This document shows, piece after piece, positions 44,874 to 58,419 of a stretch of DNA of 61,430 nucleotides. The DNA is from Clostridiales bacterium (GTDB lineage: Bacteria; Bacillota; Clostridia; Lachnospirales; Lachnospiraceae), in assembly GCA_012522735.1 (NCBI GenBank), contig JAAYJU010000253.1, positions 1-61,430 on the forward strand, written 5' to 3'. Under the pieces are notes generated by a model, which searched no databases, was not told the DNA's origin, and saw only the letters and a list, made by a program, of their open reading frames with translations. The stretch's first letter is position 1, and each line of letters starts with the position of its first letter. Position numbers and translations under genes: made by a program.

Positions 44874-44904
44874 TATACCTACTCCTAAGTAATTGATTTA
44901 TAAT

Positions 44905-45219
44905 CTAAAACTGCAGATTCATAATCTCTTTATATGCGTCCAATACCTGGTTACGAACCGCAATTGTAAATTGCAGTGCTAAGTTTGCCTTTTGCTGTGC
45001 TACCTGCAAATCGTGGGTATTATCCAGTAGGCCTAAGGAAAAAGCCATCTCAGCTTCTTCCGCTTCATTAGTATATTGATTAGTTTCTTTAATCATATTA
45101 GCAGCTGCATCAAACAAGGTTTCAAAAGCTGCGTTATTGTTCTCTTTTACACCCGTACTAGGCTGTATACCACCATATTTACTTAGCTCACCTATATTGC
45201 CTATACTTTGTAAGTTCAT
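44905..45219 (-). CDS. fliE: Hook-basal body protein FliE
   Basis: A 104-residue protein linking the MS ring and the rod. The C-terminal half has the family pattern EEAEMAFSLGLLDNTHDLQV and FTIAVRNQVLDAYKEIMNLQ. The start at 45219 follows TAGGAGGAATGGC. It is preceded by a 49-base tandem repeat containing GGAGG hairpins. Confidence 0.93.
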   Translation of the reverse strand: MNLQSIGNIGELSKYGGIQPSTGVKENNNAAFETLFDAAANMIKETNQYTNEAEEAEMAFSLGLLDNTHDLQVAQQKANLALQFTIAVRNQVLDAYKEIMNLQF

Positions 45220-45230
45220 GCCATTCCTCC

Positions 45231-45328
45231 TATACGAACTGTAAATCATCACTGCTTATAACGGAGGAATTCTCCTCCCTATACGAACTGTAAATTATCA
45301 CTGCTTATAACGGAGGAATTCTCCTCCC
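45231..45328 (-). repeat. Two tandem 49-base repeats with SD hairpins
   Basis: Units 45231-45279 and 45280-45328 differ at one base. Each ends, in minus-strand sense at its 5' side, with GGAGGA-gaat-TCCTCC, a 6-pair hairpin (45263-45278 and 45312-45327) whose arms are a Shine-Dalgarno and an anti-Shine-Dalgarno sequence. The real fliE ribosome binding site follows directly after the last unit. Confidence 0.8.
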
Positions 45329-45334
45329 ACCCAA

Positions 45335-45769
45335 TTATTTGCCCACTTCTAATCCCTTAAGAGCCATGTTCTTTGTAGCATTAAAGGCCGTTACATTAGC
45401 CTCGTAGGATCTGGTCGCATCTATTAAGTCAGTCATTTCTTGAACTACATTAACATTCGGATATGTTACATAGCCATCGTCATCCGCATCGGGATGAGTA
45501 GGATCAAATATTCTACGCATAGCCTTACTATCCTCGACTATTCTTGTTACCTTAACCCCATTACCGACAACACCTGCAGTCCTCATAAATATCTCTTGAA
45601 AGGGTGTGGCATCCTTTTCGGAAAAGACCACAGCTTTACGCCGATAAGGATTGCCGTTCTCATCACGGGTGGTATTTACATTGGCAATGTTCTGTGAAAT
45701 AATATCCATCCGTAGCCTTTGGGCAGTCATACCGCTGGCGCTTATATTCATTCCCGTAAATGCACTCAT
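45335..45769 (-). CDS. flgC: Flagellar basal-body rod protein FlgC
   Basis: A 144-residue rod component. N-terminal FTGMNISASGMTAQRLRMDI and SQNIANVNTTRDENGNPYRR; C-terminal YPNVNVVQEMTDLIDATRSY, the usual rod-protein ends. The start follows TTAGGAG by 9 bases. It lies between two repeat-bearing gaps. Confidence 0.95.
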   Translation of the reverse strand: MSAFTGMNISASGMTAQRLRMDIISQNIANVNTTRDENGNPYRRKAVVFSEKDATPFQEIFMRTAGVVGNGVKVTRIVEDSKAMRRIFDPTHPDADDDGYVTYPNVNVVQEMTDLIDATRSYEANVTAFNATKNMALKGLEVGK

Positions 45770-45780
45770 TTAGAATCACT

Positions 45781-45926
45781 CCTAACAATTTAAAATTTTA
45801 TGTAACATACGACGGAGGGATTATCCTCCCTCAGTAACTATCAACAATCGTAACTTATAACGGAGGAATTGTCCTCCTAACAATTTTAAATTTTATGTAA
45901 CATACGACGGAGGGATTATCCTCCCT
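45781..45926 (-). repeat. Direct repeats with SD hairpins between flgB and flgC
   Basis: A roughly 51-base unit at 45781-45831 recurs at 45876-45926 with one mismatch. In minus-strand sense three hairpins are present: GGAGG/CCTCC with loop ATAATC at 45909-45924 and 45814-45829, and GGAGGA/TCCTCC with loop CAAT at 45862-45877. The last resembles the fliE-proximal hairpins. The region separates the flgB stop from the flgC start. Confidence 0.8.
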
Positions 45927-46315
45927 TATTTATTTTGTAACACCATTTTAAGCCGATTAAATTCCTGTGTCATGGAATCCATCAGCGAATAATAACGTAT
46001 TTGGTTTTCAGCGAGATTCGCTGATTCTGTATCAATATCTACATTGTTGCCGTCCATTCGATAAGAAAGATTAGCATAGTCCGTGTATACCTGACCATTC
46101 AATGTGTCCATTCGAACATTTGCGACACGCTTATCAAGTGAACCGTCACCGGTAAGAGCACCCATCAGATAGGATTCAAATTGTACATCCTTCCTCTTAT
46201 ATCCCGGGGTGTCAACATTTGCTATATTATTACTAATTACCTCGTTCCTTTTCCAGCTGGCATCTGCAGCTTTCTTAAGAACATTTATGTAATTGAAAGC
46301 ATTAGATCCTATCAT
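45926..46315 (-). CDS. flgB: Flagellar basal-body rod protein FlgB
   Basis: A 129-residue rod component and first gene of the fla/che run. Conserved NEVISNNIANVDTPGYKRKD near residue 24 and the C-terminal NQIRYYSLMDSMTQEFNRLK. The start at 46315 follows GGAGG by 9 bases; longer starts upstream would run through the promoter and have no site. Confidence 0.95.
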   Translation of the reverse strand: MIGSNAFNYINVLKKAADASWKRNEVISNNIANVDTPGYKRKDVQFESYLMGALTGDGSLDKRVANVRMDTLNGQVYTDYANLSYRMDGNNVDIDTESANLAENQIRYYSLMDSMTQEFNRLKMVLQNK

Positions 46316-46337
46316 ATGTACATACCTCCATATAATA

Positions 46338-46418
46338 ATTATAAGCAAAAATATGAAAAACACAAGATATATTTGTTAATATAGTAGAATAGTACCACAT
46401 ATTGTAGCTTATTGTCAC
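46338..46418 (-). promoter_or_regulatory. Candidate promoters of the fla/che run
   Basis: The better candidate is GTGACA (46413-46418), 18 bases, then an extended -10 TGGTACTAT with TACTAT at 46389-46394. A second, TTGTGT (46360-46365), 16 bases, TATAAT (46338-46343), lies so close to flgB that the ribosome binding site would be at the RNA end. Both are of the housekeeping type. No FliA-type -10 GCCGATAA was seen. Confidence 0.45.
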
Positions 46419-46468
46419 TATATTTTTATAGGTTTTCACATATTTTTGTCAGATTTCACTCTTTTTAA

Positions 46469-46502
46469 AAAAGGATTTATGGGTATACCCACAAATCCTT
46501 TT
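46469..46502 (-). terminator. Terminator of codY
   Basis: AAAAGGATTT-TGGG-TATA-CCCA-AAATCCTTTT forms an almost perfect 34-base palindrome, followed by TTTT in minus-strand sense, 13 bases behind the codY stop. It separates codY from the fla/che promoter. Confidence 0.8.
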
Positions 46503-55596: not shown

Positions 55597-58419
55597 TTAG
55601 TTTGACGACATTTTTTGTCGCAGTACCATCTGTAATATCCCACCGTGTCTGTAATAATCCATATCGACTACAGAGTCAAATCGTATCCTGGCCTTAAATG
55701 TTCTTTGTTTGCCATCCTTTGTAGTGGCCTTAACCTCAGCCAAATCTCCGGGCTTAATATTCTTCTCTAAATGAATATCTATCATTTCTTCTCCGGTAAG
55801 GCCAAGAATTTCTGCCGATTGTCCGTCCATATACTGTAGGGGAAGAACTCCCATCATAACCAGATTAGATCTATGGATTCTCTCATAGCTTTCGGCAATA
55901 ACTGCTTTAATCCCAAGCAGGCTGGGACCCTTTGCAGCCCAGTCTCTGGATGAACCCATACCGTAATCCTTACCTGCTAGTACCACTAAACCAGTGTCCT
56001 GCTCCTTATATTTCATACAGGCATCGTATATAGACATAAGCTCTCCGGTCGGCCAGTAGTTAGTATATCCTCCCTCTGTACCCGGTGCGATTTTGTTACG
56101 GATTCGTATGTTGGCAAATGTTCCACGCATCATAACCTCATGATTTCCTCTCCTAGAACCATAGGTGTTAAAATCCTTAGGCTCCAGACCATGGCTTGCT
56201 AAATATTGACCAGCAGGTGTATTTCTACCGATAGCTCCCGCAGGAGAGATATGATCTGTAGTAACAGAATCACCAAAGCTTGCTATAACCCTAAGCTCCT
56301 TTAAAGGCTTTATATCCTCGGGCTCCATGGTAAGGTCAGTAAAGAAAGGAGGTTTTCTAATATAAGTTGAGCACTCGTCGAACTCATATAAGCTTCCTTC
56401 ATTTATCTTAATATCGTTCCATAACTCATTTTCATCATAAACCAGGCTATATTCCTTCTCAAATAGCTCGGGCTTTACATGCTCCATAACCGCATTTTGA
56501 ATTTCCTCAGATGAAGGCCAGATATCCTCAAGATATACATTATTACCTTCTCTATCTCTTCCTATTGGATCCTTGGTTAAATCAATATCCATGGTACCGG
56601 CAAGTGCATATGCTACCACAAGAGGAGGGGAGGCCAGATAATTCGCCTTAACAAGCGGATGGATTCTTCCTTCAAAATTCCTATTACCGGACAATACCGA
56701 TGTAACCAATAAATCATTATCGTTAATTGCTGCCGTAATCTCAGGAAGTAGTGGCCCTGAATTACCGATACAGGTAGTACATCCATAGCCTACGATATGA
56801 AATCCTAAGGAATCAAGAAAAGGCTGAAGACCTGCGTTTGCCAGATAGTCGGTTACCACCTTTGACCCGGGAGCAAGGGAAGTCTTAACATAGGAAGGAA
56901 CGCTTAAGCCCTTCTCTACTGCCTTCTTTGCCAAAAGTCCTGCTCCAAGCATAACAGACGGATTAGAAGTATTAGTACATGAGGTAATGGCTGCTATAAC
57001 TACCGAGCCTGTCTTTAAGGTATCACTTCTGCCATCAGCAAGACTTATAGTTGCTTCCTTCTTGAACTCTTCTTTACTAAGGCCGTGACCTTGATTGCCC
57101 AAGGGTGCTGTTACACTATTTATAAATGAATCCTTGGTATTACCTAGAGGAATTAAGTCCTGTGGTCTCTTAGGTCCAGAAAGAGCAGTCTCTACTGTAG
57201 ATAAATCCAATTCAATAATATCTGTATAGACCGGCTCAGGAAGACCCTTCTCATAGAACATATTATTTGCCTTAAGATAGCTTCTTACCAATTCCACATG
57301 CTCCTTACTTCTTCCTGTAAGCAGCATATAATCTAAGGTCTCCTCATCCACAGGGAAATATCCGCATGTAGCTCCGTATTCGGGAGACATATTTGCTATA
57401 GTAGCACGGTCAGCCAAGCTTAGTGTATGAATACCGTCTCCAAAATACTCTACGAACTTGTCCACAACCCCTGCATCTCTAAGAAGCTTTGTTACACGAA
57501 GCGCCAGATCGGTTGCAGTAGTACCTGCGGGAAGCATACCGGTCATACGTACACCTATTACCTCAGGAACAGGAAAATATGATGGCTGCCCTAGCATACC
57601 TGCCTCAGCCTCAATTCCTCCCACTCCCCAGCCAAGAACTCCAAGCCCGTTAATCATTGTGGTATGGGAATCCGTTCCCACAAGGGTATCCGGATACAGT
57701 ATATCTCTATCATTATCCTTGTCTTCTATAACCACCTTGGCAAGATACTCAAGATTCACCTGATGAACAATTCCAGTAGCTGGCGGAACCACAGAGAAGT
57801 TATCGAATGCCTTCTGTGCCCAATTCAGGAATTGATATCTCTCTTTATTTCTCTCGAATTCTCGCTTCACATTCTCCTTTAGTGCGTCCGGTATACCATA
57901 GTAATCAACCTGAACAGAATGGTCTATAACCAAATCCACCGGAACTTCAGGATTTATCCTCTCTATAAGATGAGCATAATCCATATACTGAAATGTATCC
58001 ACCATATCCATTTCTTCAATATTGGGCTCCTCTGTAACATTTTCTCCTATAGCAGATGTATTAGCTGTTTCGGCAATAGCAGATGCCTTTGCTATTTCAA
58101 CGATGGCATTTCTCATTGAAGCTAAGTCCAGAACCGAGGGTACCCCGGTAAAGTCCTGCAGAATAACTCTTGCAGGCTTAAAGGGAACCTCTCCCTGTCC
58201 TCCTTTATGCTTTGTCCAGCTTGCTAGGTCCTTGATATGGTCATCAGTAATAGCAAGTCCATCCCATCCGCGAATAACAGATTCTAGTAGAACCTTAATG
58301 GAGTAAGGTAGACTCTTTACATCATGTCCATACTTCTCTAAGGATTCTACACTATAATATTCATAAATCTTATCCTGTATCTTAAGATGCTTTCTAGCAT
58401 TATCTTTAAATGCTTTCAT
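55597..58419 (-). CDS. acnA: Aconitate hydratase AcnA
   Basis: A 940-residue iron-sulfur enzyme that interconverts citrate and isocitrate. [20 protein letters not shown] near residue 230; cluster cysteines in [16 protein letters not shown] and [13 protein letters not shown]; swivelling C-terminal domain with [36 protein letters not shown] and [18 protein letters not shown] small insertion near residues 115-140 (Ala/Ile/Glu-rich) is not usual. No other citric acid cycle genes lie in the window. Confidence 0.97.

Follow-up and report, generated by a model that had tools for sequence, protein, structure and literature searches.

Tandem units of Shine-Dalgarno and anti-Shine-Dalgarno sequence before flgC, fliE and dozens of other genes of a Lachnospiraceae genome: a putative translational switch

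Results

Repeat units in the flgB-flgC and flgC-fliE gaps

The 61,430-nt stretch from contig JAAYJU010000253.1 of Clostridiales bacterium (assembly GCA_012522735.1, family Lachnospiraceae), here called the window, shows the rod genes flgB, flgC and fliE on the minus strand, and the two gaps between them contain tandem repeat units, read on the same strand, made of Shine-Dalgarno (SD) and anti-SD sequence. An earlier note on this DNA had claimed five GGAGG/CCTCC hairpins between stop and start codons, and all five are present: two in the flgC-fliE gap (45263-45278 and 45312-45327) and three in the flgB-flgC gap (45814-45829, 45862-45877 and 45909-45924). The window has three copies of the form GGAGGA-N3..9-TCCTCC, whereas 100 shuffles gave none, and the remaining two hairpins are GGAGGG/ATCCTCC variants of it. 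Each hairpin belongs to a tandem unit, with periods of 49 and 47 (TRF); the flgB-flgC gap contains three units and the flgC-fliE gap two, and both arrays sit directly between a stop codon and a start codon, as had been claimed. The unit is about 48 nt long and shows, in order, a GGAGG here called the decoy, a short loop mostly holding TA, an arm nnnCCTCC, a spacer of 31-34 nt which in the window starts with GTT or GTC, and a GGAGGnnn which is the SD of the gene. The features of both arrays, in the order of reading, are:

45926-45928, flgB stop codon
45920-45924, minus strand, first decoy GGAGG of the flgC array, adjoining the flgB stop codon
45909-45916, minus strand, anti-SD arm 1 of the flgC array, ATCCCTCC
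45873-45877, minus strand, internal GGAGG, SD of unit 1 and decoy of unit 2
45862-45869, minus strand, anti-SD arm 2, ATTCCTCC
45825-45829, minus strand, internal GGAGG, SD of unit 2 and decoy of unit 3
45814-45821, minus strand, anti-SD arm 3, ATCCCTCC, matching the flgC SD at 7/8 positions
45775-45782, minus strand, flgC SD and next three bases, GGAGTGAT, with the start codon at 45767-45769
45335-45769, minus strand, flgC (TIGR01395 above cut-off)
45323-45327, minus strand, first decoy GGAGG of the fliE array, just past the flgC stop codon
45312-45319, minus strand, anti-SD arm 1 of the fliE array, ATTCCTCC
45274-45278, minus strand, internal GGAGG, SD of unit 1 and decoy of unit 2
45263-45270, minus strand, anti-SD arm 2, ATTCCTCC, matching the fliE SD at 8/8 positions
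45231-45262, minus strand, spacer of the last fliE unit, starting with GTTATAAG
45223-45230, minus strand, fliE SD and next three bases, GGAGGAAT, with the start codon at 45217-45219
44905-45219, minus strand, fliE (TIGR00205 above cut-off; start set at 45219, not at an alternative GTG)

The arm can pair either with the decoy upstream (helix H1) or with the gene's own SD downstream (helix H2), so the two pairings compete. In the last fliE unit, the SD region GGAGGAAT is the exact inverse of the arm ATTCCTCC, and the decoy is also pairable with this arm. The flgC SD is GGAGT rather than GGAGG. No Rfam covariance model matches positions 44900-46500 of the window (best E-value 0.96, far under the cut-off).

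Units throughout the genome

In the genome of the window (G000 in the comparisons below), each strand has 144 copies of the pattern GGAGG-N3..12-CCTCC, against 18 of the reversed pattern, and CCTCCGTT-N22..34-GGAGG occurs 96 times, against two for its reversed control. In the loci examined, these units form 66 arrays, and an open reading frame (ORF) follows 59 of them, 55 directly and four via a further variant unit; four of the remaining seven end at a contig end and three were scored without an ORF. Among these three, L021 is not a member, lacking the decoy, L024 enters a GTG-started frame (judged by eye), and one array in L054 is a true exception. When the units before ORFs are each counted once, 57 start with GTT, seven show neither orientation mark and one is inverted, the latter being L021 read backwards. 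The decoy is present in 55 of the 59 ORF-leading units, for nearly all of which the search pattern did not require it, and their spacers are 31-34 nt long. That the spacer is a copy of the native leader, as a few arrays suggested, was dropped: by gapped score, only 15 of 73 arrays exceed the 95th percentile of cross-locus pairs, and several of the 15 look like decayed earlier units.

The 59 genes preceded by units are of mixed, mostly housekeeping function, so the special role in rod gene balance proposed in the earlier note is not borne out. Those above the NCBIfam cut-off include tyrS, serS, pheS, carB, purM, guaA, pyrF, murD, murF, serC, gcvH, nusB, aroQ, rpsR, asnA, gpsA, ispF, flgC and fliE; ileS and pfl are clear although scored on their first 400 amino acids (aa) only, and 17 of the 59 have no NCBIfam match at the cut-off used. 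The pheS units (L046) lie after a GGGTGGTACCACG leader which resembles a T-box, and two layers of control may be stacked upstream of this gene.

Covariation between arm and SD

The triplet that follows the SD has its inverse copy ahead of the arm: its three positions agree in 52, 53 and 52 of all 59 units, against shuffle means of 28.7, 38.4 and 44.3, and the fourth base agrees in 14 of 59, which is the shuffle figure and chance level. RNAalifold selects the same eight pairs in alignment A1, with a covariation of 0.211 against 0.060 when shuffled; A1 holds 54 chosen units, and the five left out (L010, L013, L052, L064 and L073) include imperfect ones, so both results lean upward.

For the comparisons of orthologs, spacers and folding, units were pre-selected at an arm match of at least 6/8. 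Seventy ortholog pairs with a unit in both members show 55 differences in the SD 8-mer, 36 of them matched in the arm, 16 unmatched and three otherwise changed; where the SD is identical, 11 of 505 arm positions differ. In this set, 73 of 87 units match at 8/8, against a mean of 24.1 and a maximum of 36 when arms are permuted (2000 permutations). The pairs are not independent; if each G000 locus is given a single partner, the SD 8-mer differs in 20 of 31 pairs, and eight of these 20 have both arms perfect. The flgC orthologs illustrate the pattern: G014 has SD GGAGTGAT and arm ATCACTCC, G009 has SD GGAGTGAT and arm ATCGCTCC, and G001, G008 and G015 have SD GGAGGAAT and arm ATTCCTCC; in G005, G017 and G019, which have no unit there, the SD is GGAGGAAT.

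Predicted balance of the two helices

H1 and H2 are predicted to be nearly balanced in energy. With the eight pairs only, the fliE unit gives -10.1 kcal/mol for H1 and -10.6 for H2, and with further pairs in the spacer H2 wins (-19.2). Over 131 units the median predicted probability is 0.77 for H1 and 0.19 for H2 at 37 C, and 0.56 and 0.40, respectively, at 55 C. In units of non-GTT type at 37 C, these probabilities are 0.44 and 0.49 with short spacers and 0.83 and 0.15 with long ones. In 111 units with perfect arms, the predicted free fraction of the SD is 0.26 in the native sequence, 0.00 with the decoy blanked, and 0.52 when the triplet after the SD comes from other genes. In the model, then, the open state depends on the decoy and the closed state on the triplet, and the sequences keep both; because these parts have opposite predicted effects and both are kept, the element looks more like a switch than a lock. 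Sequence and covariation show two helices that exclude each other, one of them over the SD, as expected of SD-sequestering alternative pairing, while their balance comes only from the model. An RNA thermometer is not predicted, the modelled free fraction of the SD going from 0.26 at 37 C to 0.31 at 55 C.

Gain, loss and spread of the units

The model R1 matches 27 of 61 relatives, with 77 matches in G000, 74 in G014, 68 in G009, 53 in G001, 25 in G015 and 13 in G030; other members of the genus show from 0 to 6, and outside the genus there is one weak match. Most of the weak matches inspected are triads (SD, anti-SD, SD) with other spacers. A further model match, at 57930-57964 of the window, was rejected as a unit, falling within a 940-aa ORF. 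A triad pattern blind to the spacer matches 31 of 34 genomes of the same GTDB genus, and 25 of the 34 show at least three triads and at least twice the control; counts take both strands, and tandem arrays register on both. Triads against control are 159 to 2 in G000, 30 to 1 in G006, 49 to 7 in G004 and 49 to 6 in G030. Within the genus, triads are absent from G007, G011 and G022, at control level in G023, G029, G033 and G026, and less than twice the control in G002 and G012. Among 391 Clostridia genomes, 16 of which are others of the same family, 146 show some triad match, and none of the 390 besides G000 has a comparable excess (a small one, 6 to 0, is found in G244). Named records of Herbinix-labelled and other Clostridiales metagenome-assembled genomes (MAGs) also contain units. 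The earlier note held that hairpins confined to this strain and without reporter effect would be neutral duplications; other species of the genus have units, partly before the same genes.

The spacer of 55 ORF-leading triads from triad-bearing genomes of the genus is 7-13 nt long in 26, 30-36 nt in 26 and of lengths between in three; five or so of this set are of GTT type and some are not the last of an array. In the non-GTT triads the triplet is matched in 41, 41 and 37 of 47, against shuffle means of 32.8, 33.9 and 28.6 and maxima of 40, 40 and 37, a weaker signal because ATT dominates. A short triad precedes the same 336-aa gene in six genomes (G006, G013, G021, G028, G031 and G032), and in both genomes checked this gene is ilvC.

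Turnover was followed by synteny at six G000 loci. At pheS, G000 and G009 have units and G001, G005 and G015 do not (G014 was not judgeable). At pyrF, units occur in G000, G001 and G009, G014 has an altered one, and G005 and G015 have none. At gcvH, they occur in G000 and G014 and are missing from G001, G005 and G015. In a separate comparison of loci, pflB is filled in G000, G009 and G014 and empty in G001 and G015; the presence counts of that comparison are biased, since many loci of G014, G001, G009 and G015 were chosen as holding units, and flgC of G009 and G014, scored empty in it, does hold units with variant arms. Median spacer identity is 0.61 in 51 ortholog pairs against 0.56 in 6977 other pairs, so resemblance is mostly lost. 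Two units of G000 located 5 kb apart, before apparently unrelated genes, have spacers 94% identical and are alike through the start codon, which as judged from sequence is one recent copy event; three weaker near-copy pairs of spacers (79-85% identity) are found within species.

Discussion

A proposed switch built of ribosome-binding-site sequence

The SD/anti-SD pairing proposed for these leaders is borne out, and it probably acts on translation initiation. Our favoured reading, which we hold to be reasonably likely, is that every array works in cis within the mRNA leader, as a translational switch composed of an SD, an anti-SD and a second SD. It draws on the genome-wide excess, the fixed orientation and place ahead of start codons, the kept decoy, the copying of the triplet and its tracking between orthologs, the return of triads with other spacers in the genus and, in the model, the effects of decoy and triplet. 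In H1 the arm nnnCCUCC would pair with the upstream decoy and leave the gene SD open; in H2 it would pair with the gene SD and the next three bases and close it. In the cell, H1 would permit translation and H2 would lower it, and the input, at a guess, could be a 30S subunit on the decoy, upstream translation or a factor binding the spacer.

Several observations weigh against a switch. Predicted SD access hardly changes with array length (free fraction 0.31, 0.27 and 0.33 for one, two and three units, in 70, 47 and 11 arrays, respectively), and the spacers show no structure beyond shuffles (mean z 0.01 over 115 units with perfect arms). The genes concerned show no common pathway that stands out. 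The 16 SD differences between orthologs without a change in the arm belong here too, as does a decayed unit in G000 whose G014 counterpart is intact. Units are gained and lost between species, and because they come and go none is essential. Finally, TTT, ATT or AAT is the triplet after the SD of 22 out of 24 genes with units, but of 12 out of 91 further genes from the same stretches that have GGAGG as their SD, a bias which looks as if it were carried by the unit.

This bias would also fit a tiny mobile repeat bringing its own SD, which would insert just 3' of an SD and restore translation with the GGAGG at its far end, the arms being the ends used in movement and any effect on translation a by-product. 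At pflB the leaders of G001 and G015, which have no unit, can be aligned by eye as far as the decoy, so that the decoy looks like the older SD, and the 94%-identical pair before apparently unrelated genes and the range of 0 to 77 copies within the genus point the same way. We nevertheless consider a mobile repeat unlikely as the explanation, given that the orientation is fixed, that the arms of old copies still track the local SD after their spacers have ceased to resemble one another, and that triads of the same form occur elsewhere in the genus around unrelated spacers. Y1 transposases do not look like the driver: in ten genomes the genes of Y1_Tnp, the only transposase family tested, do not correlate with unit number (25 units and no gene in G015, no unit and three genes in G007). 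Mutational homogenisation, in which template switching between arms would copy SD changes with no selection for RNA pairing, is a process described for inverted-repeat arms, with inversion of the spacer (PMC8604942), and it would account for the scarcity of mismatched intermediates. No spacer inversion is seen in the member units, however, and the kept decoy, the position before start codons and the two spacer lengths are left unexplained, so we regard it as improbable. We give equally little credence to the view of the earlier note that the hairpins act on ribosomes finishing the upstream gene and steer re-initiation: both window arrays do lie directly between stop and start codon, but many arrays have no same-strand ORF of at least 80 codons ending within 300 nt upstream (incomplete loci count as none), and the covariation is with the downstream SD.

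A wider version of the switch, which we put forward as doubtful speculation, is a genome-wide translational buffer with no ligand, in which ribosomes are the signal and dozens of housekeeping genes would respond together to the supply of free ribosomes, through units that come back within one genus with different spacers. The decoy has no start codon, and a 30S subunit bound to it would free the anti-SD arm, which would then close the real SD. CCTCCGTTRTAAG may resemble the 3' end of 16S rRNA; no 16S rRNA 3' end was found in nine genomes, and three had no match over the cut-off. A bacterial 16S rRNA match below the cut-off (45.9 bits against 50) lies at L327:1501-1645, on contig C122 of G000.

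Known systems

As the earlier note had supposed, no description of an element of this form was found in searches of an open-licence library. By mechanism, as predicted from sequence and model, it would belong with leaders in which alternative pairing sequesters the SD. In erm-type translational attenuators and translational riboswitches, a single segment has two possible partners and so opens or closes the SD, and the triads share this design; unlike them, the triads show no recognised leader peptide or conserved ligand-binding part, their decoy is itself an SD, and they precede about sixty genes, often in tandem. Miniature inverted-repeat transposable element (MITE)-like and repetitive extragenic palindromic (REP)-like intergenic repeats are likewise short and dispersed, with inverted arms and a copy number that varies between species, whereas the triads have one orientation, are locked to the SD, have arms that track the local SD and do not share spacers between loci. 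The nearest analogue seen is the TAACTGA intergenic direct repeats of Beggiatoaceae, for which a translational role is proposed; they are spread over the genome, often in tandem, and for the most part lie immediately before the start codons of mixed genes, and the triad differs in being a 48-nt unit of SD, anti-SD and SD (PMC4679880). No TAACTGA direct repeat was seen by eye in the units read.

If functional, the triads would be a gene-control part made of ribosome-binding-site sequence alone, in simultaneous use at dozens of genes and present in related species around spacers that have no relation to each other. They would then bear on two questions: if translation can be governed by a decoy ribosome-binding site, and if cells can in this way couple expression to the supply of free ribosomes.

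Other matches and repeats

The occurrence in Chloroflexota (SHOH01, 'Anaerolineaceae MAG4') was set aside as probably a mislabelled MAG, tied to G014 of the window's GTDB genus; its unit-bearing loci are L151, L167, L169, L175, L188, L216, L217, L220, L222 and L224. Matches in Mesorhizobium, Terriglobia and Bryobacterales were rejected as units, showing by eye no SD and start codon downstream. Terriglobia and Bryobacterales have a common repeat, GGAGGCTAAAGCCTCCGTTGCA, followed by a second palindrome and not located before start codons (L156, L164, L168, L184, L206, L208, L218 and L223). Mesorhizobium species have a common hairpin of GGAGGATAAATCCTCC type in a conserved context with no SD after it (L152, L154, L165, L177, L178, L182, L189, L190, L193, L194, L209 and L214). 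Other short repeats, which seem unrelated to the triads, are those at L136:1675-1768 and L145:2520-2617, which recur at many places of G015, and that at L136:9593-9659, which does so in G014.
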